A stretch of DNA of 19,830 nt from Deltaproteobacteria bacterium RIFOXYA12_FULL_61_11. GTDB taxonomy: Bacteria > Bdellovibrionota_F > JAHFAK01 > YA12-FULL-61-11. Position numbers and translations under genes: made by a program. Each line of letters begins with the position of its first letter. Positions within the stretch are counted from its first letter, which is position 1. The notes below the pieces were generated by a model. The model was not told where the DNA came from, did not search any database, and saw only the letters and a list, made by a program, of their open reading frames with translations. The stretch lies in contig MGSU01000024.1 of NCBI GenBank assembly GCA_001799195.1, positions 522 to 20,351 of the forward strand. Direction: 5' to 3'. Shown in pieces: positions 1,803 through 13,812 of the stretch.

Positions 1803-4394
1803 ATGCGCCGCCTCATCGCCTTGTTGCTGCTTACCCTCCTCTCCTGCATGCAGGAGGACCCCACGACAACCCCGCCCACCAACGGGCAAACCACCACCGG
1901 ACCGGACGGGGCTCCTGAGCTCGACCGGCAGGACACGCTGGTCCTGATCCGCTCCGAGGACCGCATCACCCTCGAGGACGGATCCATCGCGGTGCAGGTC
2001 GAGTACGACAACGGTGCGACCATGATTCTGCCGGTAGAGCAGGCCGAGGTGGGTCCACCGTTCCGCTTCGAGGACATCGGTGGTGAGGCTGTGCTCCAAG
2101 GCCTCTCCGAGGCCGGAGTTGCCCTGGCCCTTCCCTCGAACGCCGTGATCCTGGTCGCTTCCCGCGCCAGCGGCGAGTCCGAGCTCGATTTCCGGGATGC
2201 ACTGCTCTACCGGCTGCCCGCCACCGCCCTACCGGCTTCGTTCGAACCCGCAGCGGCCATCCCGGCCAACGCCATCCCGTTCGAACTCGCTGCTACGGCC
2301 ATCCCCTCCAATGCAATTCCCAGCAATGCCCTCCCCTCCTCGCTGATCGAAGAGGAAGCTGCACCGGTCTGGGCGGCCGAACTCGCCCCCGAGGCCGCCC
2401 TACCGGCCTCCTGGTACTTACAGCCGGAACCAGCCGTCGACCCGACCGATGACACGCCGGTCTTGTTACCTCTCCTCGTCCTACGAGAGAAGGAAGACCG
2501 CGTGATCAGCCTGGTCTGTGAGGCGGAGCGAGACGAGGAGGACTACGAGCTCACCTGCCCCGTGAGTGGCGCGATCACAGCGCCGACCGCCTACCTCCTG
2601 GTCGTCCTCGTCCCGTTCAAGGATTTCCGGGGTATGACCCTTGGGGCCGTTCCCGTGGCCGCCATGCACCAGGCTGCGGCCCTTGATGCCCCGAACCACC
2701 CTCCCAGGCTCGAGGTCCCCGAAGAACTCGAGGTGTGGGCCGGCCGCACCTCCTATCTGCGCCTGGCCGCTCTCGACGAAGACGGCGATCTGGTCGAGCT
2801 CGTAGCGATCGAGGGTCTTCCCGAGGACTTCACCGTGAGGAAGCGCAAGCATCTGTTCATTAAGCCGCGTCTCGATGAACCGGCGGCCGAGTATCCGGTC
2901 CAGGTCACCCTACGGGACCTGGCGGTACCGCCGGCCGAGACCGTGGCCGAGTTCACCCTCGTGCTGAAGAGCCCCGTGAGCTGGGCCCGGGTGACCGGTA
3001 CCAACTTCCCGACGGAGGTCTTCCAGCGGGACAATCTGGCCGTGCGCCCGGACGGCGGGGTGCTCATGGTCGGGCAGTTCTCCGGGGTGCAGGACCTCGG
3101 TTCCGGCTTCCCCAAGGCCATCCCAGCTCCCCCACCCGTGCAGGGTGACCCGAGCGGGGATACCGTGGTCCTCTCGGTCACCGACGGGGGGGACCTCGAA
3201 TGGTACCACGTTTTCCCCGGTCAGTACGGGCAACTTCAGGGCGTTGCTGCGGCCGGAGCCTCCTCGGCCGTGATCTTCGGCGGCCTGATGGGGCGGGTCG
3301 ACCTGGGCCGGTTCTTCGGCCAGGTCGAAGTCAATCTCCAAGGCAACCCACTCGAGTTCACCGCGCCGGACTCGGCCTTCGACGGGTTTATGGTCGAGTT
3401 GGAGGCCGGCCACGCCACTACGGGGCGTTCGCTCACGGGGACGAGTTTCGACCGGGTGGAGAACCTGATCGGTCTGACCGACGGCAGCAGGATCGTCGCA
3501 GCGAACGCGGTCAAGAGCACTGCCTGGAGCGATCAACCCTTTCCCAAGCCGCTCACCCTGAACTCCAGGCTCGACGTCCTGGTCAGCCGCTTCGACCAGC
3601 ACGGCGGTGTGGTCTGGACCTCTACCTTTGGCGGCGAGGGTGCCGAGCGGCTCAACGCCATGGCAGCCACGACCGAGGGGGAGGTCTACCTCACCGGCTA
3701 CTTCGATGGGACGGTTGTGCTCGAACCCTCCCCGGGCGGGGGGCTCGACACCGGGTATCCAACCACCCCGGACGGCCTGGACCTCTTCCTGGTCAAGCTC
3801 GACGCCAAAGGCAGCCTCCGCTGGAGCCGCACCTACTCAGGTGCCTCCAAAGAGATTGGAGTGGATCTCTTAGCCCTTCCTGACGGGAGCGTGGTGCTGT
3901 TGGGCTCGTGGCAGCAGGAACTCGTGCTCGTCGGAGAGGAACCGGCGGTCTCCGAGAGTACGACCTCCCTTGTCGACAACGCGGTGATCGCGCGCTTCGA
4001 CCGTGACGGCGGGCTGCTCTGGTCGAAGGTGATCGCCTGCAAAAAAATGGTCACCCCGCGCTCCCTGTCCACCCTCGACGATGGTCGCATAGCAATCCTC
4101 GGTACCTTCACCGGAACCTGCGATTTCGGTGCCGGCTTCGGGACCCAGGAAATCCTTGTCGGCGCAGGCCAGAATGACGTTTTCCTGCTCGAACTGGACG
4201 AGCAGGGCACGTATCTCGGCACGACCGCGTTCGGCGGGACCGGTAGCGACGTCGCACATGGCTTTGCCGGGTTCGACGGTGGGGCCTACCTCACCGTGGT
4301 ACTTGCCGGCGAGACTCCGCTCTCCTCGCGCTTTCCGGGACAGTCCGCTCCAGCCACCGGCCGTTACCAGACTCTCTTACGTATCGAGCGATGA
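1803..4394 (+). CDS. Outer-surface lipoprotein with Ig-like domain and SBBP-type beta-propeller
   Basis: The product is an 863-aa exported lipoprotein. ATG 1803 (GGAG at 1793-1796) gives a short signal peptide MRRLIALLLLTLLSC with lipobox LLSC and Cys15 as the lipidated residue. An in-frame ATG at 1755 would add 16 residues ahead of the signal peptide and is unlikely. Residues about 152-180 are a pentad repeat (AIPAN, AIPFE, LAAT, AIPSN, AIPSN, ALPSS). Residues about 300-390 resemble a cadherin/Ig-like fold, opening with HPPRLEVPEELEV. The C-terminal ~470 residues repeat the pattern 'W..tfgG.g.d....a...dG.vyl.G.f.g...f......D.fl.kld..G', typical of SBBP beta-propellers. Binding, adhesion or a structural role is plausible, but the function is unknown. 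It follows the response regulator on the same strand, possibly under sigma-54 control. Confidence 0.88.
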   Translation: MRRLIALLLLTLLSCMQEDPTTTPPTNGQTTTGPDGAPELDRQDTLVLIRSEDRITLEDGSIAVQVEYDNGATMILPVEQAEVGPPFRFEDIGGEAVLQGLSEAGVALALPSNAVILVASRASGESELDFRDALLYRLPATALPASFEPAAAIPANAIPFELAATAIPSNAIPSNALPSSLIEEEAAPVWAAELAPEAALPASWYLQPEPAVDPTDDTPVLLPLLVLREKEDRVISLVCEAERDEEDYELTCPVSGAITAPTAYLLVVLVPFKDFRGMTLGAVPVAAMHQAAALDAPNHPPRLEVPEELEVWAGRTSYLRLAALDEDGDLVELVAIEGLPEDFTVRKRKHLFIKPRLDEPAAEYPVQVTLRDLAVPPAETVAEFTLVLKSPVSWARVTGTNFPTEVFQRDNLAVRPDGGVLMVGQFSGVQDLGSGFPKAIPAPPPVQGDPSGDTVVLSVTDGGDLEWYHVFPGQYGQLQGVAAAGASSAVIFGGLMGRVDLGRFFGQVEVNLQGNPLEFTAPDSAFDGFMVELEAGHATTGRSLTGTSFDRVENLIGLTDGSRIVAANAVKSTAWSDQPFPKPLTLNSRLDVLVSRFDQHGGVVWTSTFGGEGAERLNAMAATTEGEVYLTGYFDGTVVLEPSPGGGLDTGYPTTPDGLDLFLVKLDAKGSLRWSRTYSGASKEIGVDLLALPDGSVVLLGSWQQELVLVGEEPAVSESTTSLVDNAVIARFDRDGGLLWSKVIACKKMVTPRSLSTLDDGRIAILGTFTGTCDFGAGFGTQEILVGAGQNDVFLLELDEQGTYLGTTAFGGTGSDVAHGFAGFDGGAYLTVVLAGETPLSSRFPGQSAPATGRYQTLLRIER

Positions 4395-4404
4395 CCTCCT
4401 CGCC

Positions 4405-4433
4405 TTGACCGGCTAGTCCCATCTCCCTATACT
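4405..4433 (+). promoter_or_regulatory. Sigma-70-type promoter of the PhnD-like gene
   Basis: A -35 TTGACC (4405-4410) and a -10 TATACT (4428-4433) are separated by exactly 17 bases, just after the stop of the upstream lipoprotein gene. Transcription would start near 4440. A GAGGG ribosome site (4454-4458) and ATG 4468 follow. This makes the PhnD-like gene a separate unit from the lipoprotein gene. Confidence 0.7.
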
Positions 4434-4467
4434 CGGCCTCGGGCACACGGCGTGAGGGTATACTTGC

Positions 4468-5493
4468 ATGGGGTCCTTGTTCCGCACCGCTCTGATCCTG
4501 ATTTTCTGTCTGGCCGCTCTGGCCACGGACGCTCGGGATGCGCAGGGCAAGCTGGTCTTCGGCATCCAGGGCACTGCCGCGGATTACCACGATTGGGATC
4601 GGTTCATGACCGAGAGACTCCAGGGACTCTTCCAGCCCCGCGGCATCACGGGGATCACCTTCGTGGGCGAAGAGGATTATCAAACCTTCATCCGCCGCGG
4701 GCAGCAGGGCGAGTTTGATATCGTCAAGTGCGGTCCCATGGCCTACCTGGAGATCGCGAGGAAGTTCCCCCTGACCCCGGTGCTCAAGACCGCGTACACG
4801 GTCGAAGAGGGGAAACCCACCGAATACCGGGCCGTGCTGGTTACGACCAAAGGAGAGTATCGCAATGGCCTGCCTCGCGGGGTCAAAGTCGGTCTGGTCA
4901 GCCCCAGCTCGACCTCGGGAGGGCTCTTCCCGCAACTGATGCTCAGGGATCTCGGGGGCAGCGAGAGCGAAGTCGTCCTGAGTTGGTGGAAGTCGCATCT
5001 GGGGGCGCTCGAGGCCATGCTTGCCGGCATCGTCGACGTGGCCGGGGTCGGGGATTTCGTCCTGACCAGGAGCTATCTCGAACAGCGGGTGAACAAGGAC
5101 GAAGTTCGCTTACCGCAGCATTTCGTGTTGGCTCGGAGCGAGCCGATCCCGTCAGACCCCATCGCGGTCAGCGCCGCCTTGGCCGCGGACAAAGCATTGG
5201 TTGAGGACCTCTCCCGGGCCTTTCGCGTCTATCGCAACACCACGGGGCAGAACCGTTATTCTTGGCTCGAACCCGCCGGTCCCGAGCATTACCTCGGCGT
5301 GGCCGAGGCCATGGAGATCCTCGAAGGCCGGAATCGCTGGGGCAGAACCCTGCGCAAATTGGGCCGGACCCTCGGCGAACGCTTCGAGGACCCTTTGGTT
5401 CAACTTGTCGTTATTCCACTCGCCTTGGCCGTGGTCTTGTTGCTCGTCGGTCTCGGTTTCGTCGCGCGGTGGCATTGGAGGCCGAGGGGCTGA
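4468..5493 (+). CDS. PhnD-like periplasmic substrate-binding protein with C-terminal membrane anchor
   Basis: The 341-aa protein has a signal peptide (MGSLFRTALILIFCLAALA) and then a phosphate/phosphonate-type ABC binding fold. Family features are KLVFGIQGTAADY near the N-terminus, a domain-swap segment with FDIVKCGPMAYLEIAR, VGLVSPSSTSGGLFPQLML (the phosphate-gripping STSG loop of PhnD/PtxB relatives), and AMLAGIVDVAGVGDFVL. Residues about 310-333 form a hydrophobic helix followed by RWHWRPRG, so the protein is probably held to the inner membrane facing the periplasm. Classic PhnD proteins are soluble or lipid-anchored and are encoded with an ATPase and permease. Neither is present here, so a sensory or scavenging role is as likely as transport. 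ATG 4468 has GAGGG 9 bases upstream. The family call is firm; the ligand is unknown. Confidence 0.85.
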   Translation: MGSLFRTALILIFCLAALATDARDAQGKLVFGIQGTAADYHDWDRFMTERLQGLFQPRGITGITFVGEEDYQTFIRRGQQGEFDIVKCGPMAYLEIARKFPLTPVLKTAYTVEEGKPTEYRAVLVTTKGEYRNGLPRGVKVGLVSPSSTSGGLFPQLMLRDLGGSESEVVLSWWKSHLGALEAMLAGIVDVAGVGDFVLTRSYLEQRVNKDEVRLPQHFVLARSEPIPSDPIAVSAALAADKALVEDLSRAFRVYRNTTGQNRYSWLEPAGPEHYLGVAEAMEILEGRNRWGRTLRKLGRTLGERFEDPLVQLVVIPLALAVVLLLVGLGFVARWHWRPRG

Positions 5494-5521
5494 CCTCATC
5501 CCGCGCGGTGCTTCCCCGGTC

Positions 5522-5863
5522 TCACGGTCTCGCCCCAGGATAGGACGAAGTTTCCACGCAGAGTGCCTCCAGCCTCAAGGTTTCGACCCAGGACAGGAAG
5601 GAAAGGGCTGTGGAGTAGCGGGTGGTGATGGCCTGCAGACTGCCGCGGGGGCATTCCTCTTGGAGTTGGATATAGGCGCGCTCGACGTACTCGGTGTCGA
5701 AGGCAAAGCCGAGGATGACCCGTTCTTCCACCACGACCTCGACGGGCCGTCCGGTGCCCGATGGTACAGGGTAATCCATGCCGCTGCAGTGAACCTGGTG
5801 GATACTATAGGAGCAACTCAAGCCGCCCAAGATGCAGCTCATCAGGACAAGCTGCGCTTTCAT
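5522..5863 (-). CDS. Small lipoprotein, third of three tandem paralogues
   Basis: This 113-aa predicted lipoprotein starts MKAQLVLMSCILGGLSCSYS, with lipobox GLSC. A longer in-frame start at 5980 would put 39 basic residues before the signal peptide and is rejected. The ATG (5863-5861) overlaps the TGA of the upstream gene (5862-5860) as ATGA, so translation is probably coupled. The sequence LQEECPRGSLQ...EALC carries two cysteines exactly 30 residues apart, as in both upstream neighbours. The preceding ILGFAFDTEYVERAY matches FFGFSFDNDFLDELE of the second gene. I do not recognise a named family. It ends convergently with the PhnD-like gene, 28 bases away. Confidence 0.8.
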   Translation of the reverse strand: MKAQLVLMSCILGGLSCSYSIHQVHCSGMDYPVPSGTGRPVEVVVEERVILGFAFDTEYVERAYIQLQEECPRGSLQAITTRYSTALSFLSWVETLRLEALCVETSSYPGARP

Positions 5864-6177
5864 CGCTCTACGCCCTGTTGCAGGCAGTATCCTTTCGCGA
5901 TGACACGTTCGGTGTGTGCGAGAAGGTAGAATCGCCGCTCGTGTTTGGTCAAAATCCCGGCGACCTTGCCGTTCGGGCATTGTGCGGCCAGCTTAGGTTC
6001 GAGTTCGTCCAGGAAATCGTTGTCGAAGGAAAAGCCGAAGAAGATGAATTTACTGACCTCTGCCTCGATGCGATGCTGCCGTTCCTTCGGAATGGTGGTG
6101 AGGGAGACCGTGGCAAGTTGAGCGCAGCCGACGAGAGCACAGGAGAGTAAGACCAAGGACAAATAGCATCGGTACAT
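5860..6177 (-). CDS. Small lipoprotein, second of three tandem paralogues
   Basis: The product is a 105-aa lipoprotein, MYRCYLSLVLLSCALVGCAQ, with lipobox LVGC. ATG 6177 has GGAG six bases upstream on the minus strand and is preferred over an ATG nine codons earlier. Its core is FFGFSFDNDFLDELEPKLAA, followed by QCPNGKVAGIL and a final GYC, with 30 residues between the two cysteines. It sits 14 bases downstream of the first gene and overlaps the third by ATGA, so the three form one operon. The two invariant cysteines suggest a periplasmic disulfide. The function is unknown. Confidence 0.82.
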   Translation of the reverse strand: MYRCYLSLVLLSCALVGCAQLATVSLTTIPKERQHRIEAEVSKFIFFGFSFDNDFLDELEPKLAAQCPNGKVAGILTKHERRFYLLAHTERVIAKGYCLQQGVER

Positions 6178-6191
6178 GAGGGACTCCGCGA

Positions 6192-6608
6192 TCAAGGTGC
6201 ACAACGACCGGTAAGGTGGACTATTTCTCCGCTGATGACCGGGTAGCGGCGCATCTCGCGCACCAGCATGAGCGAGGTGACGTTACCGGAAGGACATTGC
6301 TGGCGCAACAAGGCCTCTATCCCATCAGCATAGGTATCATCCAGGACCGGATTCCCGGTCCTGGGCCCCATCTGGCTGAGTTCGATGATGAGCTGGATAA
6401 AACTGGCTGCTTTGCGTGCATCTCCCTTCAATGCGGTTCGAGCGATGAAACCCGCCTCCCGGGTGCTGACCCCGAGTTCCGATACTTTGATATCTATCGG
6501 GGTCGACTGATCGCGGCCACGGGTGTCGATGTCACCGTACTGGACGTGATGCACCATGGCACATCCGTGCAGTACCAAGAACGCGCCAAGCGGCAGGATT
6601 CGACGCAT
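6192..6608 (-). CDS. Small lipoprotein, first of three tandem paralogues
   Basis: This 138-aa lipoprotein has the signal MRRILPLGAFLVLHGC (lipobox VLHGC) and is led by a good sigma-70 promoter at 6639-6666. The N-terminal half resembles the TRL-like family of small bacterial lipoproteins (HHVQYGDIDTRGRDQSTPIDIKV), though this is a weak match by eye. The C-terminal part, LLRQQCPSGNVTSLML...LTGRC, has the same CPxG and the same 30-residue spacing to a final cysteine as the two genes after it. It is longer than its paralogues because of the middle segment before the CPxG motif. The function is unknown, and an envelope location is likely. Confidence 0.8.
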   Translation of the reverse strand: MRRILPLGAFLVLHGCAMVHHVQYGDIDTRGRDQSTPIDIKVSELGVSTREAGFIARTALKGDARKAASFIQLIIELSQMGPRTGNPVLDDTYADGIEALLRQQCPSGNVTSLMLVREMRRYPVISGEIVHLTGRCAP

Positions 6609-6638
6609 GAGCTACCAGGTATAACGTAGTTGGAGAGG

Positions 6639-6666
6639 ATTATCGGGAAAACCGAGGTAGTGTCAA
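6639..6666 (-). promoter_or_regulatory. Sigma-70 promoter of the three-lipoprotein operon
   Basis: On the minus strand, TTGACA (6666-6661) and GATAAT (6644-6639) are separated by 16 bases. The start of transcription would be near 6632, about 24 bases before ATG 6608. It lies in the short gap after the stop codon of the upstream minus-strand gene (6680), so the operon can be transcribed independently. Confidence 0.7.
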
Positions 6667-6679
6667 GAAAGGGGGCGGG

Positions 6680-8050
6680 TTATTGCGGGATCGGACCGCC
6701 GGTGCGCGGGCGGGGCGTGGGGTTCGGGTTGTTCTCGCCCTCCTTGGGTACCTTGACCGGTTGGTAGGTGAAGGGCTTGAACTCTTTGTAGGCCGGGTCG
6801 GTGTAGAGCTTGTGGCAGGCCTCGTACTGGTCCTGGTCCATCCACACTTTTGCCGCCTGCACCGGGTCCTTCACGTCCTCGGCGATTTCGGCGAAGAGGT
6901 GGTAGCACTCCCAACTCGCGGTCTCGATGCAGTGGCACTTGCTGCCGTAGTCGCACAGCTTGTCGCCGTAGCAGTTCTCGACCTTGCCGTGCGGGCAGAA
7001 GGTCTGCCAGTGGTCGGTCTTGGCCTTGGCCGCGTCGAGGACTTCATAGGCAGTGTAGTTGTACTTGGGATGCTTGGGGTGACAGAAGGCGTTGGTCTGA
7101 CCGCCGAGCACGGCGAAGCACAGCGGCTGTACCCCGCCGGCGCAGGGGCCGTTCTTCTTGCTGGTGTAGTCTTTGGGTGTATAGACGTAATAGGTCGGAA
7201 CATAGACCTCGGTGAACTGCGGCGGTTGGGGCATGGGTTGCGGCATGGGCTCGGGCATGGGCTCGGGCATCGGTTCGGGCATGGGCTGCGGCATGGGCTG
7301 CGGCTGGGTCGAGGCAGCGCGCTTGAGCTGGGCGGCGAAGAGCACCTCTTCCTGTTTGCCGTCGCCGGCGCTGTTTTTAAACCGCAGTACCACGCGGTTG
7401 ACCTTGAAATTGTTGGGGTTGAAGTTGGTGAGCAGGGCAGAGCCGCCGCGGGTGGCGAAGCTGAAGTCGCTCTTCTCGAACTCGAGCTTGGTGTTGGTGT
7501 AGCCCAGGATGGCCACCTTGTACTGGTCCCCCTTCACGAACATGCGGACCTCTTGGAGGTTCGTCGGTACGGCCAGGGTGTATTCCACCTCGAGATCGAA
7601 GTCTGGGCGATTGCGGTACACGCGCAGGGCAGGATCTTCCGGGCTGAAGGCCGTGGCGTCCTCGGCCTCCTTGAGTTGGGTGAGGTACTCTTTCTCCATC
7701 TCAATCACGCGCTGGGGTTTTTGCCCGCTCTTCTTGAGTAGATGGATAGCCTTGAACACGCCGTAGTCGATCAGGTCGCCGTAATCATAGCTGAGGAGGG
7801 TCTTGTAATGGGCTTCGAAGACCCCTTCGTCGAGCACGATGAGGTGATTGGATGTCGGGTTTGCCTTGATCTTGAGGACGTTGCCGTCAATGATCACGGC
7901 CACATTGGGGTTGACCATGGCCGGCGTGGTTTCGGGCACGTTGACCTTGATCTCCCGAAGGTAGTTGGCAGGCACAGGCTCGGTCATGGCTGCCCCGGCC
8001 AGTTGGCCGGCAAGCAGGAAACAGCACAGCACGGTGAAGAGAACCTTCAT
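6680..8050 (-). CDS. Secreted protein with Met-Pro repeat linker and cysteine-rich C-terminus
   Basis: This 456-aa exported protein begins MKVLFTVLCCFLLAGQLAGA, a Sec signal peptide. The ATG at 8050 is preceded by GGAGGAGG. An ATG eight codons earlier is less likely. The mature N-terminal ~220 residues contain beta-rich segments (VAVIIDGNVLKIKANP; DFDLEVEYTLAVPTNLQEVRM; KVNRVVLRFKNS) of no family I recognise. Residues about 248-275 are a PMPQ/PMPE repeat encoded by a 12-bp tandem repeat. Residues about 300-415 contain ten cysteines (PC, LC, FC, FC, NC, LC, KCHC, EC, AC), enough for five disulfides. A Pro/Gly-rich tail ends the protein. It could be a surface or matrix protein, but the function is unknown. 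Before the element inserted, this was probably the first gene beyond the tRNA and its terminator. Confidence 0.85.
   Translation of the reverse strand: MKVLFTVLCCFLLAGQLAGAAMTEPVPANYLREIKVNVPETTPAMVNPNVAVIIDGNVLKIKANPTSNHLIVLDEGVFEAHYKTLLSYDYGDLIDYGVFKAIHLLKKSGQKPQRVIEMEKEYLTQLKEAEDATAFSPEDPALRVYRNRPDFDLEVEYTLAVPTNLQEVRMFVKGDQYKVAILGYTNTKLEFEKSDFSFATRGGSALLTNFNPNNFKVNRVVLRFKNSAGDGKQEEVLFAAQLKRAASTQPQPMPQPMPEPMPEPMPEPMPQPMPQPPQFTEVYVPTYYVYTPKDYTSKKNGPCAGGVQPLCFAVLGGQTNAFCHPKHPKYNYTAYEVLDAAKAKTDHWQTFCPHGKVENCYGDKLCDYGSKCHCIETASWECYHLFAEIAEDVKDPVQAAKVWMDQDQYEACHKLYTDPAYKEFKPFTYQPVKVPKEGENNPNPTPRPRTGGPIPQ
7230..7301 (-). repeat. 12-bp tandem repeat encoding PMP(Q/E)
   Basis: Six units of GGCATGGGCTCG-like sequence (plus-strand view) lie head to tail at 7230-7241, 7242-7253, 7254-7265, 7266-7277, 7278-7289 and 7290-7301. 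Two are identical to GGCATGGGCTCG and two to GGCATGGGCTGC. The unit is a multiple of three, so copy-number change would lengthen or shorten the linker without breaking the frame. Confidence 0.9.
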
Positions 8051-8162
8051 ACGACCTCCTCCTTCTTTGACCAACGAGTGTCATCGACACGTTTCACGTA
8101 TGTCGGACCATAGTGCAAAGCGGCAATCACGGCAAGGGATATTTGCGGATTGGCAGGACGAG

Positions 8163-8198
8163 AAAAAACGAAGGCCGTAACCTTTCGGTCACGGCCTT
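8163..8198 (-). terminator. Intrinsic terminator, originally of the tRNA gene
   Basis: The hairpin AAGGCCGT-A-ACC / GGT-C-ACGGCCTT at 8171-8198 has loop TTTC, one internal mismatch and 11 base pairs. On the minus strand it is followed by CG and T6 (8168-8163). It lies 12 bases beyond the left 16-bp att repeat, which is a copy of the tRNA 3' end. Reading across the empty site, the tRNA would end and meet this terminator at once. Confidence 0.85.
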
Positions 8199-8207
8199 TC
8201 GCACCTC

Positions 8208-8223
8208 GATGGCACCTCAGGGA
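8208..8223. other. Distal attachment site (16-bp repeat of tRNA 3' end)
   Basis: GATGGCACCTCAGGGA is identical to 13737-13752. Leftward of it lies the tRNA terminator, which supports this being the displaced original tRNA 3' end. Similarity stops immediately on both sides of the 16 bases. Confidence 0.85.
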
Positions 8224-8364
8224 GTGGAATGATTGTCATAACAATAATGAAAATATTGGCATATCGTGAATATCGAAAATTGGCTTGAATGGGTACTTGT
8301 ACTAACAGGGGAGGGTAGTGGGTTCAAATCACAATCAAGGACGGCCTTAGCCTCTCACGCGGAT
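8224..8364. other. AT-rich distal att arm, with integrase arm-like site
   Basis: I see no gene in this stretch. It is AT-rich just inside the distal att site. It contains CTTGTACTAA at 8296-8305, the same 10-mer and orientation as at 13614-13623 near the proximal att site. That is consistent with an arm-type integrase binding site about 75-90 bases from the core. GGGTTCAAATC at 8320-8330 resembles a tRNA T-loop, but the flanking stem does not pair. Confidence 0.5.
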
Positions 8365-8487
8365 CTACCTCGAGCGGGTCATCTCGAGTACCTTGGACCA
8401 GTTCGGCGCGGATCGGTTCGCGAGGTCGAGTAGCCAGCGACGGCCGTTGACGTTGCGGTACCAGCCAAACAAGTCGAGATCGTGCAC
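8365..8487 (-). CDS. Possible small ORF, 40 aa, GTG start
   Basis: A minus-strand frame open from 8529 to a TAG at 8367-8365 reads like protein (...HDLDLFGWYRNVNGRRWLLD..., then NRSAPNWSKVLEMTRSR). The only standard start is GTG at 8487-8485, with only a weak GAAGAAA upstream. The open frame begins just inside the 3' end of the 72-aa gene in a +1 frame, so coupling or frameshift is possible. Coding-like amino acid composition is the main evidence. I recognise no family. Confidence 0.35.
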   Translation of the reverse strand: MHDLDLFGWYRNVNGRRWLLDLANRSAPNWSKVLEMTRSR

Positions 8488-8521
8488 TAGGCGGTATTTC
8501 TTCGAATGAAACCAGCTCGGA

Positions 8522-8740
8522 TCACTTCTTCACCCTCCGGCGCGGTTTCTTGTCCGGAGCGTCGAGCTCTAATTCCCCGCGGACTACCAACTCCTCGGCG
8601 GGCCGTTCGTCCTCGACTTCGACGAAATACTTGGCCGCGCTCTCGGAAACGTCGAAGGGCATCTCCAGAGTCATGGGAGGCCAGACGCGGCCGTGGTGAT
8701 TTAGTTCGACGGTGTTCATAAAGCGAATCCTCTTGGACAT
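8522..8740 (-). CDS. Small hypothetical protein of the element, 72 aa
   Basis: This 72-aa protein runs from MSKRIRFMNTVELNHHG through PPMTLEMPFDVSESAAKYF to a basic tail (KKPRRRVKK). ATG 8740 has GGAG about eight bases upstream. A longer frame to 8821 has no support. The opening resembles small phage proteins of the type 'KIRFLKNVELNHxGxVxxPG', so an origin in a phage head or regulatory region is possible. That is an impression, not an identification. It is the last well-supported gene before the distal att site. Confidence 0.6.
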   Translation of the reverse strand: MSKRIRFMNTVELNHHGRVWPPMTLEMPFDVSESAAKYFVEVEDERPAEELVVRGELELDAPDKKPRRRVKK

Positions 8741-8742
8741 GG

Positions 8743-8838
8743 TCAATACTCCATCTCGTTGGTGAACATCGCCGCAAGGTCGTCGTTGTCGTCCCAGTCC
8801 TCGGTCGGCCATTCCGAGCATCGGAAAATGGTTATCAG
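8743..8838 (-). CDS. Possible small acidic ORF, non-standard start
   Basis: The minus-strand frame ending TGA at 8745-8743 encodes ...IFRCSEWPTEDWDDNDDL..., ending FTNEMEY, only two bases before the next ATG (8740). The frame is open back to a TAG at 8901-8899 but contains no ATG, GTG or TTG before the acidic segment. CTG at 8838-8836, with AGGA upstream, is the best guess. It may be a genuine small phage-type protein, a remnant whose start was lost, or a chance frame. Confidence 0.3.
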   Translation of the reverse strand: MITIFRCSEWPTEDWDDNDDLAAMFTNEMEY

Positions 8839-8873
8839 ACGGTAGATAGATCCTACCTCGAGCGGGTGGCGTC

Positions 8874-9014
8874 GGTCAACGTGATCGCCGGGTTTGACCT
8901 ATGGCAGGGGGGGGAGGGGTACAAGAATCGGTCAGGATATAACCCCACCTGAACCGGCCAACTCGGCGGGCTTTTTTCGCCTCCTGGGGTGCAGGGTGGT
9001 GGTCAACGTGATCG
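8874..9014. repeat. 14-bp direct repeat pair GGTCAACGTGATCG
   Basis: Exact copies lie at 8874-8887 and 9001-9014. The right copy covers the stop codon of the terminase-small-like gene, and the left lies six bases from a copy of the 15-bp repeat (8853-8867). The bases between hold a G8 run and a plus-strand terminator. The repeat may mark a past duplication or recombination event. Confidence 0.6.
8954..8977 (+). terminator. Plus-strand intrinsic terminator without an obvious gene
   Basis: CCgGCC-AACTC-GGCgGG (8954-8970) forms a five-pair stem with one G-G mismatch, followed by C and T6 (8972-8977). It points rightward, against all genes of the element. It may block antisense transcription into the terminase-small-like gene or end a short plus-strand RNA. 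On the minus strand it has no T-tail. Confidence 0.6.
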
Positions 9015-9479
9015 TGGTTTTTTTCCCAGCGCTTCGATCAACACCTGTTCAAGTTCGAGGTCGCTCATCTTGTGCAATTCTTCTTTGGTCGGGTGGTGAC
9101 GTTCTTCATGCTCGACGACGACGGCCGGTTGCTTTAGCACGTCGCCAAGGATCAGTTCGGCGGCTTTGAGCGCAACGCGGGGGTCTTTGGCATCGAGGAG
9201 AGATACCATCACCTCGGCGGCTTTGACGCGGGCGGCGGTCAGGATTTCGACGGCGCTTTGTGACATGGCGGCTTCGATATCCTCGCGTGCTTCTTTGTAG
9301 TCCAGCCTGGCGCGGGTCTTCTCGACGGCCGAGGTCGAGAGCTTGAGCAGCGCGGCGAGCTTCGGAGACGAGAGCGAGGGGTTCTCTAGCTCACAACGGA
9401 GCACGCGGCGGACGTTGCGCGGTAGATTTCCGGCATGTTCTTGCAATGTTCGTCCTAGATCGAGGTCAGCCGGTTTCAT
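9003..9479 (-). CDS. Terminase small subunit-like DNA-binding protein
   Basis: The 158-aa protein has an N-terminal HTH (residues ~25-58: RCELENPSLSSPKLAALLKL then STSAVEKTRARL). A long helical segment follows, with the SAVEILTAARVKAAEVMVSL...DPRVALKAAELILG pattern seen in phage terminase small subunits. A charged tail (HPTKEELHKMSDLELEQVLIEAL) ends it. In phages TerS recognises pac/cos DNA and recruits TerL. No TerL lies nearby, as in satellites that redirect helper packaging. The ribosome site before ATG 9479 is weak. The gene is 140 bases downstream of the primase gene with a possible promoter between. The alternative is a generic HTH phage regulator. Confidence 0.6.
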   Translation of the reverse strand: MKPADLDLGRTLQEHAGNLPRNVRRVLRCELENPSLSSPKLAALLKLSTSAVEKTRARLDYKEAREDIEAAMSQSAVEILTAARVKAAEVMVSLLDAKDPRVALKAAELILGDVLKQPAVVVEHEERHHPTKEELHKMSDLELEQVLIEALGKKPRSR

Positions 9480-9510
9480 CGGTAACCATACAAGTCAATG
9501 GTTGCCTTGC

Positions 9511-9539
9511 ATCGTAGCGTATATGGCCTCTGCCGTCGA
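9511..9539 (-). promoter_or_regulatory. Weak candidate promoter of the terminase-small-like gene
   Basis: On the minus strand TCGACG (9539-9534) and TACGAT (9516-9511) are separated by 17 bases, each matching consensus at four of six positions. The start codon lies about 31 bases beyond the -10. The site falls in the only real gap of the replication-packaging gene run. Confidence 0.3.
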
Positions 9540-9619
9540 GATAGGGGCATGGTTTCGATCAGAGGGCGGGGAAGTAGGGGGCGATAGGAAACGGGGCTTC
9601 TGGTGGCCCTGGTGCGCTG

Positions 9620-10738
9620 TCACGGTAGCGGAAGACCGGGGCCGGTGAAGATGTATCGGTTCGCCATGCGGTTCGGTGTCGGCGGTCGCACAACTGAAAG
9701 CCAGTGGTAGGTCTTGAGAAGCAGCAACAGTTTTGCAGCGGCGGCATGACTCACGTCGAGCAGCTCACCGGCGTCTCTACAGCACAGCCAGAAAACGCCA
9801 TCTACGGCGAGCAGTTCGTTGACGGCCCATACTAGCGCGGCGGTTCGTTTCACGGTGGACCAGGGCGGCGGAACCAAGGGACAGGACGGCGCCAACTTCA
9901 GCGCCTCGGCCTTCCACTCAGTGCCGGGGTTTTCGACCAGTACGAGCTTGCGGTAGAACTCGGCTTGGTTCAAGTCGCGGTCCTTCGTTTTGATGATCGG
10001 TACGGCCAGAGTATACCATCGGTCGAAGATGTCGGCCACCTCGGGAGCGGCCGGTTCGTAGTACCGACGTACAGCTCTAGCCAGAGTCCACAGCCCGTGG
10101 TCTCGCTGTCCCTCGGCGGTCGGAACGAATGGAGCAACGTCGAAGTCGCCGGGGGGGTGGTAGCGGTCCATACTAACGTCTTTCAGAAGTCTTCTGGAGT
10201 CCTCCGGTGGCTCAGGAGTCTTCAGGAGTCTCTGTAAACAGAACCCAGCTTCAACTAGGTCGAGCACCTCCGGCACCTGGTCAACGTGCGCTGGAAATGG
10301 GTTGATCCATCGGTAGGAGGCGCCGGACGGGTGCAACGACGGGGGTACAAGAATGTAAGAACCGGAAGCTCGTAGCTCTCCGTCATCGAGGTTGCAGGTC
10401 TTGGCGCCGGGGTGGCGTGCGTAGACGTGAAAGCCTCTACCTGTTCGAACGGTCGGCAGGGTTGCGGCAAGGCCGGGGTGCACGGTGGCCCACTTCTCGA
10501 AAATGCCCTCCACGTCGAAGTCGCGGCATACGAGATCGCCGGAAACGGGACCAAGGATCACCGCGAGACCGGTGACGCTTCCCCCGCTGGGGCCGGTGAA
10601 CCAGTGCTTCAACTCGGCTGGGGTTGCTCGTCTTTTCTGGTACTCGCGCCAAGAACAGCACGCGGCCTTCTCATGCGTGGGTATGATGCTCAACCCACGG
10701 GCCTCGAGATCGAGCGCAGCGGCGAGGAAGTCGGTCAT
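9620..10738 (-). CDS. Primase-polymerase (AEP/Prim-Pol fold) with C-terminal winged helix
   Basis: This 372-aa replication protein probably primes element DNA synthesis. The Prim-Pol domain shows FLAAALDLEARGLSIIPTHE, the metal-binding pair in CRDFDVEG (Asp73, Asp75), TVRTGRGFHVYARH with the conserved His104, and RASGSYILVPPSLHPSGASY. The C-terminal ~70 residues look like a winged helix (VWAVNELL...GELLDVSHAAAAKLLLLLKT...). No helicase domain is fused, so a host or helper helicase must be used. I choose ATG 10738 because it overlaps the upstream stop as ATGA. Starts further upstream (TTG at 10822, ATG at 10780) lie inside the previous gene and precede the domain by nonsense-like basic residues. 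Confidence 0.85.
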   Translation of the reverse strand: MTDFLAAALDLEARGLSIIPTHEKAACCSWREYQKRRATPAELKHWFTGPSGGSVTGLAVILGPVSGDLVCRDFDVEGIFEKWATVHPGLAATLPTVRTGRGFHVYARHPGAKTCNLDDGELRASGSYILVPPSLHPSGASYRWINPFPAHVDQVPEVLDLVEAGFCLQRLLKTPEPPEDSRRLLKDVSMDRYHPPGDFDVAPFVPTAEGQRDHGLWTLARAVRRYYEPAAPEVADIFDRWYTLAVPIIKTKDRDLNQAEFYRKLVLVENPGTEWKAEALKLAPSCPLVPPPWSTVKRTAALVWAVNELLAVDGVFWLCCRDAGELLDVSHAAAAKLLLLLKTYHWLSVVRPPTPNRMANRYIFTGPGLPLP

Positions 10739-11052
10739 CGGGTGCGGTATGCGTGGAGTGGACAAGATTCGGTTCCGCATCGTCTCACGTCGGCGGCGAC
10801 GAACCCCACACAAGAGAGGCAAAAGGTCTTCATCGCAGCAGCTCGCGATTTTCCGGCCACGGCGCGAAGATATTGCCGACGATGCGCCGGGGGGTATTGT
10901 TGGGCCATCCGCTGGATTGCATCAGATGGACCCTCTGAGGGGGTTCCTGCGGCATCAGAAACGGGCGAATTCTGATCACCGGGGTCTTGGGTCCCCCCTC
11001 CGGGATTTTCACCGGTTTGGCCTCCGTCGAGGCATCCTACAGCGTCTTTCAT
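10735..11052 (-). CDS. Small phage-type zinc-ribbon-like protein
   Basis: The first half of this 105-aa protein is Gly/Pro/Asp-rich. The C-terminal part, AAMKTFCLSCVGFVAADVRR and then CGTESCPLHAYR, carries Cys78-x2-Cys81 and Cys92-x4-Cys97. This matches a small family common in phages and satellites (pattern 'A.r..C..C.gg...ev..C....CplypyR'), thought to bind zinc. The exact role is unknown. Its ATG (11052) overlaps the stop of the AlpA-like gene and its TGA overlaps the primase ATG, so the three genes are coupled. A large frame lies on the other strand here, but the cysteine motif and the two ATGA junctions favour this one. Confidence 0.75.
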   Translation of the reverse strand: MKDAVGCLDGGQTGENPGGGTQDPGDQNSPVSDAAGTPSEGPSDAIQRMAQQYPPAHRRQYLRAVAGKSRAAAMKTFCLSCVGFVAADVRRCGTESCPLHAYRTR

Positions 11053-11360
11053 TTCTTCCCCCTGGTCGAGGTCCTCGCGGGTTCGGTCTTCTTGACGGTC
11101 TTGGTCCTGGGTTTCATCGGCAAGGGTCCGGTCTGGTAGGGGAGGTTCGCCAAGAAGGCCAGTACGTCGGCGCCTTTGAAGGCGACGGTGTATGCCCCCA
11201 GCTTGACCGGCCGGATCGCGATGGTTCCGGCGGCAATGCCCTCGCGGAGCTTCGTCCTACCCATCGGCACAAGAGCGAGTAGCTCTCGTTCGCGGATCAG
11301 GGTCTCAGGTAGCAGGCGGAACCCTTCGGGGAGTACGCGGATCTTTCTGGTCTTGGGCAT
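11049..11360 (-). CDS. AlpA/excisionase-like HTH regulator
   Basis: In this 103-aa protein, residues ~20-72 follow the AlpA/MerR-type winged-helix pattern: ETLIRERELLALVPMGRTKL...GTIAIRPVKLGAYTVAFKGADV, with LAFLANL closing it. AlpA-type proteins activate integrase or excision and satellite replication genes. The C-terminal 25 residues are basic and probably disordered. ATG 11360 has GGAG seven bases upstream; an earlier in-frame ATG at 11402 would overlap the promoter. The gene heads the operon AlpA-like, zinc protein and Prim-Pol, under a strong promoter at 11393-11421. Confidence 0.75.
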   Translation of the reverse strand: MPKTRKIRVLPEGFRLLPETLIRERELLALVPMGRTKLREGIAAGTIAIRPVKLGAYTVAFKGADVLAFLANLPYQTGPLPMKPRTKTVKKTEPARTSTRGKK

Positions 11361-11392
11361 GTTCAGTCTCCAATGTGATCGAACGTGCTTGC

Positions 11393-11421
11393 AAGATATC
11401 ATCTGAATGCAATACTGTCAA
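11393..11421 (-). promoter_or_regulatory. Strong sigma-70 promoter of the replication operon
   Basis: On the minus strand TTGACA (11421-11416) and TATCTT (11398-11393) are separated by 17 bases, with an extended -10 TGA just upstream. Transcription would start near 11386, about 26 bases before ATG 11360. It is the best promoter within the element and is flanked upstream by repeated TTATGATTA sites. Confidence 0.8.
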
Positions 11422-11434
11422 TATAAACAAAGAC

Positions 11435-11459
11435 TTATGATTATTTATGATTATGATAC
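11435..11459 (+). repeat. Iteron-like repeats TTATGATTA in the AT-rich control region
   Basis: TTATGATTA occurs at 11435-11443 and 11445-11453, 10 bases apart, with a degenerate third copy TTATGATAC at 11451-11459. They lie about 15 bases upstream of the replication-operon -35 box, in the most AT-rich stretch of the element. One-turn spacing suggests a protein-binding array, either a regulator site or part of a replication origin. The gap 11361-11514 holds nothing else that I can see. Confidence 0.55.
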
Positions 11460-11514
11460 TTGCGCTCGTGCTTGTGGCAGTAAGGCGCGGTGTGTGTACG
11501 ATGAAAAAAAATGA

Positions 11515-12312
11515 TTATTTGTGCTTTTTCTTGATTTGAAATCCTACTAAGAGTCCTCTCTTGCGAAGGTTCGTTGCAACGTTGCAAAGATATTCCTCGG
11601 AATAGCCCACCAGGCGAGACGCTGCCGTGATTGTCGCTGCTTTGCACCCCTCCTTGATAGAGCCGAACTCCCCTTGGTTGAGCCACTCAACAAGGTAGCG
11701 CTTCATGGGTTTCAGGCGTTTCAAGTCGGCCGGTACCGGGTCGGTCGGGGGTGCGAAGGATGGGGACAGTTCTTTATACACACGATCAGCGCTCGCAGCT
11801 AAAGCCGCATACTTGGTTTCGTCGGCCGATCTTCCCAACTCGATCAGCGCATGCTGAATCAATTCGCGTTTCAGGGGTCCCCCTGCCGGTAGATGTTCTC
11901 CCTCGGCGAACCTGACCAACCGAGCAAGGGCCTCGAATGCCAACCGCTCGGCCTCGCAGAACCGAGCGCGGTCCCGTTCGGGCAGGGCTTCAACGATTCG
12001 CCGGTGCGCCTCCTCATCGCGTTTCGGAATGTCGCGAATGACAATTCTCTTCACGTCTTCGTTGTCAGGGGCCAGCCCTCCGACCAAGGAAGCCAGCTCT
12101 TCCAGGGTCAACGCGGACAAACCACGCCACCTTGACCAGACATCTGGGGGCATCCATGGCGGGCTTCCAAAGACCGTCACCGGTGCCGCTGTCGTCGTCA
12201 ACTTGTTCCAATCCATGCCGGGCTTGATGGTTCCGGTTGCCGTCGTCCTGCCCTCGGAGATCGGTTCCACGGTCTTCGGTTCCGGTGCTTCGGTTGTCGG
12301 TGTCGTCTTCAT
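11515..12312 (-). CDS. Element protein of unknown function with C-terminal HTH-like region
   Basis: I do not recognise this 265-aa protein. The N-terminal ~45 residues are Thr/Pro/Glu-rich and likely disordered. A helical middle (ALTLEELASLVGGLAP; DEEAHRRIVEALPERDRARF) follows. The last ~60 residues (KRYLVEWLNQGEFGSIKEGC, ASRLVGYSEEYLCNVATNLRKRGLL) look like a winged-helix DNA-binding unit. ATG 12312 overlaps the integrase stop as ATGA, with GGAGGGG seven bases upstream inside the integrase gene. The two are therefore one transcription unit. A T8 run follows the stop, but no strong GC hairpin precedes it. A repressor of the element or a replication accessory protein are reasonable guesses. 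Confidence 0.7.
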   Translation of the reverse strand: MKTTPTTEAPEPKTVEPISEGRTTATGTIKPGMDWNKLTTTAAPVTVFGSPPWMPPDVWSRWRGLSALTLEELASLVGGLAPDNEDVKRIVIRDIPKRDEEAHRRIVEALPERDRARFCEAERLAFEALARLVRFAEGEHLPAGGPLKRELIQHALIELGRSADETKYAALAASADRVYKELSPSFAPPTDPVPADLKRLKPMKRYLVEWLNQGEFGSIKEGCKAATITAASRLVGYSEEYLCNVATNLRKRGLLVGFQIKKKHK

Positions 12313-13559
12313 ACTTGTTCCCCTCCATCTCGAATCCAGGGCGGCGGCCCACCTCGCAACTCGTCGAGCAGGTCTGCCCATTGCTGCATCACAACGCGCC
12401 GGTCGTCGATGAACTCCTCTCGAGCGTATGTGTGACCGAGCGGCCCTCGCGCGACATGACCTAGTTCATGCTCCAGGATGTCGGGGAGGGCTTTGAATCT
12501 TTCGCGGGCGAGGGTCCGAAAACTAGCACGGAACGAATGCGCCACCACGATATCGGGGGGCAGACCTACCGACCGCAGCGCGGCCACGATGGCGGCATCT
12601 GACATCGGACGGTTATTCTTGCGCTGGCCGGGAAAGACCCATTCACCTCCGCCGGTCAAAGGGAAAAGTGCTTTGAGCAACGCGAGAGCTTGCCAGGAGA
12701 GTGGTTTATCCAGGAAGCGCGGTTCTTTGCCTTTCTTGGTCTTCGAAACCTTCAATTTCCAGGTCCCTGTCTCGAGGTCGAGGTCTTTCCATTTCATCTG
12801 CCGCAATTCGCCCGGCCTGGCTGCCAAGTAAGGGGTAAGCTGGAGCGCCACGCCGACCACGCAGCCGCCTTTATGGCACGCCATAGCGCGAAGTACGGGG
12901 GCGAGTTCTTCGGCCTTTACAGGCGCCGGAAAATGGTCTTGCGGACGTGGTGTCAGATCTTTGGTCATGCCTCTGGTGACGTCGGCGGTGACCATTTCCA
13001 TACGAACGGCATATTGTAGCGTGCTCGAGATCGCGCGTAGGGCTCGATGAGAGGTTTCGATCTTGCCGGTTTCTTGGATCTTTTTGATCACCGGCAGAAG
13101 ATCACGATAGCGCAGGTCTGCCACGTTGCGATTTCCGATGCTGGGTTGGACGTCACGTTCGATGATGCGCTGAATGTTGTTGGTATAGCTCTCAGACCAA
13201 CTCGAAGAACGGTTCTTGATCCAGGCGGCGAAGACATCTTTGAAGGTCTCGCCTCCCACCACTTTTGCCAGAGTGCGGGCTTGCCTCCGATCGGCTACAG
13301 GGTCATGGCCGGATTGGAGCTTGCGCAGCAGTTCACCTGCTCGCAATCTTGCTTCCCTCAAGGTGACATCCGGCCAACTGCCAAGACTGATTCGAGTGGT
13401 CTTGCCGTTGCGGGAAAATCGGTACCGCCACCATTTCCCTGTGATGGTCACCTCGAGCATGAGACCGGGGCAAGATGCGTCGAGCGCATAGGTGCTTTTT
13501 TCGGTATGGGGCAGATCTTCAACAATTCGTTCGGTCAAGGGTCGTGCAGTCTTGGGCAT
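12309..13559 (-). CDS. int: P4-type tyrosine integrase
   Basis: This 416-aa site-specific recombinase would integrate the element at the tRNA 3' end. An N-terminal arm-binding domain (residues ~1-95, with GLMLEVTITGKWWRYRFSRN and ISLGSWPDVTLREAR) is followed by a core-binding domain (~105-200) and the catalytic domain. Active-site residues are present: Arg248 (AARPGELRQMKW), a Lys near 273-275 (SKTKKGKE), His341-Arg344 (HSFRASFRT), His368 (LEHELGH) and Tyr378 (GHTYAR). The length is normal for P4 integrases. ATG 13559 has no clear ribosome site and overlaps one arm of a perfect 12-bp inverted repeat, suggesting tight control. The gene lies 180 bases from the tRNA and reads away from it, the classic arrangement. 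Confidence 0.95.
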   Translation of the reverse strand: MPKTARPLTERIVEDLPHTEKSTYALDASCPGLMLEVTITGKWWRYRFSRNGKTTRISLGSWPDVTLREARLRAGELLRKLQSGHDPVADRRQARTLAKVVGGETFKDVFAAWIKNRSSSWSESYTNNIQRIIERDVQPSIGNRNVADLRYRDLLPVIKKIQETGKIETSHRALRAISSTLQYAVRMEMVTADVTRGMTKDLTPRPQDHFPAPVKAEELAPVLRAMACHKGGCVVGVALQLTPYLAARPGELRQMKWKDLDLETGTWKLKVSKTKKGKEPRFLDKPLSWQALALLKALFPLTGGGEWVFPGQRKNNRPMSDAAIVAALRSVGLPPDIVVAHSFRASFRTLARERFKALPDILEHELGHVARGPLGHTYAREEFIDDRRVVMQQWADLLDELRGGPPPWIRDGGEQV

Positions 13560-13655
13560 TTTTAGTACAACTTCGGGGGTGGTTGTGGCCTCGTCGGGTC
13601 ACCTGTACCCTATCTTGTACTAAAAACGTCCAAACTTCAATAAAACTGCCTGTAC
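13559..13655. repeat. 12-bp inverted repeat and TGTAC sites upstream of the integrase
   Basis: TTTTTAGTACAA (13559-13570) and TTGTACTAAAAA (13615-13626) are perfect inverted copies, 44 bases apart; the first overlaps the integrase ATG. Further TGTAC cores lie at 13604-13608 and 13651-13655. The 10-mer CTTGTACTAA recurs at 8296-8305 near the other att site. They could be integrase arm-type sites that also repress the integrase gene, or operators of an element regulator. The rest of 13560-13738 has no gene that I can see. Confidence 0.7.
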
Positions 13656-13736
13656 TTCATTGGCTTGATTTTGATTGCTTTCTGAATGAGATCAAGAGGG
13701 TTGTGGCCTTCCCTGGCCCTGAAAAAAAGAGGAAGA

Positions 13737-13752
13737 GATGGCACCTCAGGGA
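13737..13752. other. Proximal attachment site within the tRNA 3' end
   Basis: GATGGCACCTCAGGGA is identical to the distal repeat. It covers the 3' side of the acceptor stem, the discriminator base and part of the T-stem of the tRNA. Integration therefore keeps a functional tRNA. Confidence 0.88.
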
Positions 13753-13812
13753 TTTGAACCCCGGACACTGCGGATATGAGCCGCATGCTCTAACCACCTG
13801 AGCTAAGGTGCC
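13739..13812 (-). tRNA. tRNA with CAU anticodon (elongator Met or lysidine-type Ile2)
   Basis: On the minus strand the gene folds fully: acceptor GGCACCT/AGGTGCC, D-stem GCTC/GAGC, anticodon stem TGCGG/CCGCA with loop CTCATAT (anticodon CAT), variable GTGTC, and T-arm CGGGG-TTCAAAT-CCCTG with discriminator A. CCA is not encoded. Position 1 pairs with 72 and the anticodon stem lacks three G-C pairs, so it is not the initiator. Met-elongator and Ile(CAU) cannot be separated by eye. It is the integration target of the element. Confidence 0.93.

Follow-up and report, generated by a model that had tools for sequence, protein, structure and literature searches.

A 19,830-nt stretch of contig MGSU01000024.1 from Deltaproteobacteria bacterium RIFOXYA12_FULL_61_11 (positions 522 to 20,351; this whole stretch is called the window here) was found to carry a small element that measures 5,529 bp from start to start of two exact 16-bp direct repeats, GATGGCACCTCAGGGA. 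Judging from its sequence, we consider the element to be a minimal integrative phage satellite, with a probability of about 0.72, and it most likely spreads by riding in the particles of another virus. The sequence-only reading of this DNA had also arrived at a satellite, and that proposal is well supported by the repeats, tRNA gene and integrase that mark the element's ends, by its coupled gene blocks, by a protein of a satellite-associated family resembling the terminase small subunit (TerS), and by two further elements in other bacteria. The positions of the features are listed in Table 1.

The right-hand copy of GATGGCACCTCAGGGA forms the 3′ end of an intact tRNA-Met(CAT) gene, and the two copies are the only matches in the window even when 3 mismatches are allowed, a level at which shuffled sequences average 0.23 matches. 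The integrase is intact, with arm, core-binding and catalytic domains (Arm-DNA-bind_3, Phage_int_M and Phage_integrase); it matches phrog_1 at 4e-46 and shares 30% identity with P4 Int over 95%. It can also be seen that the 9-mer TTGTACTAA occurs in exactly three exact copies in the 19.8 kb, each close to an element end, with the inverted pair situated between int and the tRNA gene. We infer that these copies are arm-type sites of the P4-type integrase, as their positions are those expected for such sites. No second copy of the tRNA site was found elsewhere in the genome assembly. Adjoining the distal attachment (att) repeat is a non-coding stretch of about 300 bp, and in or beside the distal non-coding stretches lie an exact 15-bp repeat, CTACCTCGAGCGGGT (8365-8379 and 8853-8867), and an exact 14-bp repeat, GGTCAACGTGATCG (8874-8887 and 9001-9014), which are candidate packaging or origin sites.

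Every gene of the element lies on the minus strand, in the order int, a 265-aa gene, alpA, a zinc-ribbon gene, a Prim-Pol gene (prim), a gene for a 158-aa helix-turn-helix (HTH) protein and a small open reading frame (ORF), the last situated on the distal-att side of the 158-aa gene. The genes int and 265-aa form one coupled block and alpA, zinc ribbon and prim a second; the junctions within the blocks are ATGA overlaps, the zinc-ribbon gene overlapping both its neighbours in this way, and a promoter-like site lies between the blocks. A scan of 6 kb gave 4 such sites, where 2.3 were expected; this one scored highest and falls in a short AT-rich gap. The alpA ORF reaches to 11402, although translation probably starts at the ATG at 11360, which has a Shine-Dalgarno (SD)-like GGAG upstream; likewise prim probably starts at the ATG at 10738, which overlaps the upstream gene, rather than at the TTG at 10822. 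The zinc-ribbon protein has the pattern CLSC...C....C, with relatives at E 1e-6 in a whole-genome search and 3e-10 in a small local ORF set. The Prim-Pol keeps the DFD of motif I and the H of motif II and has E at the acidic position of motif III, where four relatives have D; a domain search found no helicase domain in it. Inside prim, at 10182-10231, there are five imperfect tandem copies of TTCAGGAGTC, which are iteron-like and a possible replication origin.

Pfam, PHROGs and the other family-library searches gave no family match for the 265-aa gene or the small ORF. Among the ORFs of the element, family and domain searches recognised no gene for the terminase large subunit (TerL), portal or capsid, and none for relaxase, conjugation, mobilization or partition. 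Searches of IMG/VR and GTDB contigs returned no close relatives of the Prim-Pol and only distant integrases for Int, and there is no second Prim-Pol copy in the same genome. The exact att repeats at a tRNA gene, the intact P4-type integrase, the AlpA-like, zinc-ribbon-like and Prim-Pol proteins and the co-orientation of genes without TerL or capsid had all been claimed from the letters of the sequence, and all were borne out; that inventory was incomplete, as the 265-aa gene overlapping the int stop had been overlooked and the small ORF was not named.

The 158-aa protein had been proposed to be TerS-like, and this stands as remote homology. A search of 386 genomes yielded a single weak relative of use, which is 148 aa long and comes from genome G137 (BLASTP 42% over 43 residues). 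This relative has matches at about 1e-5 to three terminase-small-subunit PHROGs, and its best matches in the phage collection are Streptococcus satellite phages. When a second relative was used as the query, 56 of 50,697 phage records matched, 53 of the 56 carrying Streptococcus names, and every Streptococcus record among the matches listed is a satellite phage. The best members of this family match TerS PHROGs at 1e-5 to 1e-8, and wider relatives directly precede TerL. Scored with a profile built from six proteins of the family, the 158-aa protein reached 20.1 bits, whereas 20,000 shuffles did not exceed 13.6. With a 14-member profile its score was 22.4 bits; here 20,000 shuffles peaked at 15.1 and unrelated natural ORFs at 11.3, and the TerL-adjacent TerS of phage contig L057 did as well as the 158-aa protein, at 22.1 bits. 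In hhalign, residues 19-117 aligned colinearly with the family at 64.5% probability. An alignment of the family contained no segment of sufficient conservation to serve for scanning the collection. These scores support common descent of the 158-aa protein with TerS-like HTH proteins; a function in packaging is putative. We use the term TerS-like because intermediate sequences make the link, not because of a direct family match.

Two other elements carry members of the same family. The first (L038; G137:C94, 6253-14429) measures 8,121 bp, lies at tRNA-Leu and has an exact att repeat of 56 bp; it encodes an integrase, the TerS-like protein, an AlpA-type protein and a CHC2-type primase; no TerL or capsid gene was recognised confidently among the proteins scanned. 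The second (L033; G023:C3:41000-57000, 2443-12745) is a satellite-like element of 10.3 kb with 22-bp exact repeats, in which an integrase, a zinc ribbon related to the 105-aa protein, a TerS-like protein (phrog_2538, 3e-5) and a RelBE-like toxin-antitoxin pair were found and no TerL was recognised. The gene combination therefore recurs in distant bacteria. No conjugation or full phage module was seen in the relatives examined. The search for empty sites in related genomes that had been suggested from the sequence yielded none, the phylum being represented by two genomes in the collection. In another locus (L082, G151:C58, 7552-8535) a TerS-like N-terminus is fused in frame with a truncated integrase, and the two probably represent what is left of an element of this kind.

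Table 1. Features of the element and its integration site (window coordinates).
Feature	Position	Strand	Basis
Attachment-site repeat, tRNA-distal, exact 16-bp copy	8208..8223	.	exact repeat
TTGTACTAA, candidate integrase arm-binding site, distal end, 74 bp inside distal att	8297..8305	+	exact-copy count in window
Small ORF, 72 aa from ATG 8740 (SD-like GGAG upstream) or 99 aa from 8821	8522..8740	-	ORF list, start context
158-aa helical HTH protein, TerS-like by remote homology	9003..9479	-	profile scores, hhalign
Prim-Pol primase-polymerase, 372 aa	9620..10738	-	PF09250 1.7e-16; phrog_1156 8e-14
Zinc-ribbon protein, 105 aa, in the place of PICMI up1 (between alpA and prim)	10735..11052	-	relatives L007, L008, L033
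AlpA-like HTH (excisionase/regulator)	11049..11360	-	phrog_66 4.8e-4; start context
Sigma-70-like promoter TTGACA-17-TATCTT, extended -10, ahead of alpA-zinc ribbon-prim	11393..11421	-	promoter scan
265-aa gene, no family, position of PICMI iolg	11515..12312	-	ORF list; ATGA overlap with int stop at 12309-12312
P4-type tyrosine integrase, 416 aa	12309..13559	-	domain and PHROG matches, P4 Int alignment
Inverted TTGTACTAA pair, candidate Int arm sites, tRNA end	13562-13570 minus and 13615-13623 plus (13562..13623)		exact copies
Attachment-site repeat, tRNA-gene 3′ end	13737..13752	.	exact repeat
tRNA-Met(CAT), intact, integration target	13739..13812	-	tRNA gene call

The closest parallel in gene plan is provided by the phage-inducible chromosomal minimalist islands (PICMIs) of Vibrionaceae, complete examples of which were reported by their authors in Vibrio only (PMC10803314). 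The prototype, PICMI115, has 6,110 bp, 17-bp repeats and six genes, namely int, a gene that overlaps by ATGA and is required for excision, alpA, up1, prim and up2, with AlpA as the trigger and alpA-up1-prim as the helper-induced regulon (PMC10803314). Our element resembles it in size (5.5 against 6.1 kb), in its direct repeats (16 against 17 bp), in the lack of capsid genes, in the split between int and alpA regulons and in the order int, ATGA-overlapping gene, alpA, one gene, prim, accessory gene. It has the PICMI traits of int, alpA and a primase together in a very small element and of a gene overlapping int by ATGA (12312-12309, minus strand). It differs in having a TerS-like gene, which PICMI115 lacks, and a host that is not Vibrio. 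That satellites are usually larger, as the sequence-only reading had it, is true of phage-inducible chromosomal islands (PICIs) and not of PICMIs, which average 6.7 kb in Vibrio (PMC10803314). The small size is therefore not unprecedented and the plan is known from Vibrio; among the differences are the primase, the packaging-type gene and the poorly sampled host phylum. By analogy of gene plan the element appears to work like a PICMI, yet it is not filed as one, because it is integrated at tRNA-Met and not next to fis, and because it has only a PF09250 Prim-Pol in place of the DUF3987/DUF5906 primase (PF13148, PF19263).

The traits of PICIs are also present: a specific att site, an integrase, no structural or lysis genes, and an AlpA-like regulator and a Prim-Pol in one operon. 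Known Gram-negative PICIs are larger and have more genes. Those such as EcCICFT073 (PMC6092414) share Int, an AlpA-type regulator, a primase, in some cases terS, a lack of structural genes and, presumably, helper dependence; our element differs in that its Prim-Pol has no helicase. The Streptococcus satellite phages of the Javan series share the TerS-like family (about 53 records), int at one end and, in the records opened, the lack of an annotated TerL, but are mostly 8-15 kb and have repressor or KilA-type regulators and other replication genes. Enterobacteria phage P4 is alike in integrase type, an AlpA/Vis-type protein, primase-based replication and a tRNA target, whereas it has 11.6 kb with the alpha primase-helicase and sid/psu/delta, families for which Pfam and PHROGs gave no match in our element. 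Tycheposons and VEIMEs are likewise small integrative elements, for which virus particles are the presumed vehicle, and are likened to the present element by description. Both have been named in marine bacteria (PMC11389934).

Several observations weigh against the satellite reading. The comparison of the 158-aa protein with TerS profiles that had been suggested at the outset gave no direct match, its relatives alone matching TerS PHROGs, and Pfam, PHROGs, NCBIfam and PDB held no convincing direct match to TerS or any other family (the PDB searches gave nothing useful). A single-sequence AlphaFold model had a pLDDT of 60 and was uninformative; its Foldseek list is meaningless even though a TerS came second. 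The family members L080, L081, L083 and L084 lie at loci without an integrase or TerL matching reference proteins, and the TerS-like family is therefore not solely a packaging family. The nearest named relatives of the Prim-Pol are plasmid replication proteins. The element is known as a single copy in one metagenome-assembled genome (MAG; 87% complete, 342 contigs); neither an empty site nor an excised circle was found, with two genomes to represent the phylum, and a search for 14-mers common to the element and the phage contigs of its own genome revealed no helper match or shared pac/cos.

Some of these points would suit an integrative plasmid or mobilizable element, in which a Prim-Pol replicon with an integrase spreads by conjugation or natural transformation and the 158-aa protein regulates copy number or transcription. 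Among the plasmid matches of the Prim-Pol are Deinococcus plasmids and small replicons of archaea (pIT3-like, E 1e-14). The 158-aa protein, for its part, has some relatives that are not in any recognisable phage or satellite locus, one of them on a cyanobacterial plasmid. We nevertheless regard such an origin as improbable, since no relaxase or conjugation domain of the kind expected of integrative and conjugative or mobilizable elements was found in any ORF of the element, nor a partition or mobilization gene, while the AlpA-zinc-ribbon-Prim-Pol operon with a TerS-like protein is a satellite trait and the protein's family is concentrated in satellites. The small size, the single copy and the 300-bp non-coding stretch beside the distal att could instead point to a decayed, immobile remnant of a prophage or larger satellite. 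This is very improbable given that the main ORFs, which have coupled starts, and the tRNA gene are all intact, the att copies are exact and each end has arm-like sites.

A further explanation is a variant of the preferred one and shares part of its probability: the element would be packaged passively, in the style of PICMIs or cos-type PICIs, by bearing a packaging site of its helper, and the 158-aa protein would be an Rpp-like packaging modifier or serve in regulation or defence. PICMI115 has no TerS, the gene after prim in PICMIs is an accessory defence slot (PMC10803314), and the direct TerS signal of the 158-aa protein is weak. On the other hand, the protein groups with satellite TerS-like proteins and equals the TerL-adjacent TerS of L057 in profile score, and for defence by the genes without a family PADLOC yielded just one sub-threshold match, in which the 158-aa protein hit a CARF model (E 0.0034, 14 bits). 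Such sub-threshold matches are all that would place the protein in a non-terminase family. It has no close relatives in IMG/VR or GTDB contigs and no second copy in its own genome. We consider passive packaging rather unlikely.

Taking the element as a satellite with a packaging protein of its own, a working scheme can be proposed. Int, perhaps aided by the 265-aa protein, would integrate the element at the 3′ end of tRNA-Met and restore the tRNA. Infection by a helper phage, or its induction, would switch on the promoter ahead of alpA, and AlpA may act as excisionase or activator. The coupled zinc-ribbon and Prim-Pol proteins would then start replication of the circle, with helicase and polymerase supplied by helper or host. 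The 158-aa protein most likely would recruit the large terminase of the helper to a site in the DNA of the satellite, and satellite copies, probably as concatemers, would be packed into helper particles.

A helper phage may supply helicase, capsid and TerL, as the sequence-only reading had it. Other contigs of the host assembly contain two TerL genes, one portal and two HK97-type capsid matches, and tailed, helper-type phages therefore infect this lineage; nothing ties these genes to the element. The two TerL genes are related and lie on short contigs (L062, G000:C189, and L063, G000:C135), one followed by a portal gene, and appear to be prophage or phage pieces. A helicase of the host assembly matches the C-terminal part of phrog_19930, the N-terminal part of which matches the element's Prim-Pol. 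The helper prophage with a matching pac or cos site that the sequence-only reading had suggested looking for was not found in the 14-mer comparison: the sole shared 16-mer (element position 8362; portal gene of contig C189, coding IYLER) was judged to be chance because an unrelated 19-kb contig shares a 15-mer with the element.

It is possible, and we suggest it tentatively and at less than even odds, that very small satellites with the PICMI plan (int with an ATGA-coupled partner, then alpA-X-prim) make up a class that crosses phyla and whose members have their own satellite-associated packaging selector of TerS type; the element described here is the smallest of this kind that we found. That the same minimal plan occurs in a phylum from which hardly any genomes are available suggests a widespread origin or persistence of minimal satellites, and detection tools that depend on known primase and TerS models may miss such elements. 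A testable link is also provided between TerS and an uncharacterised HTH family that is almost confined to satellites among sequenced phage records.

Outside the element, the flank at 5522-6608 contains adjacent small minus-strand ORFs with lipoprotein-like N-termini, which are perhaps diverged tandem paralogues.

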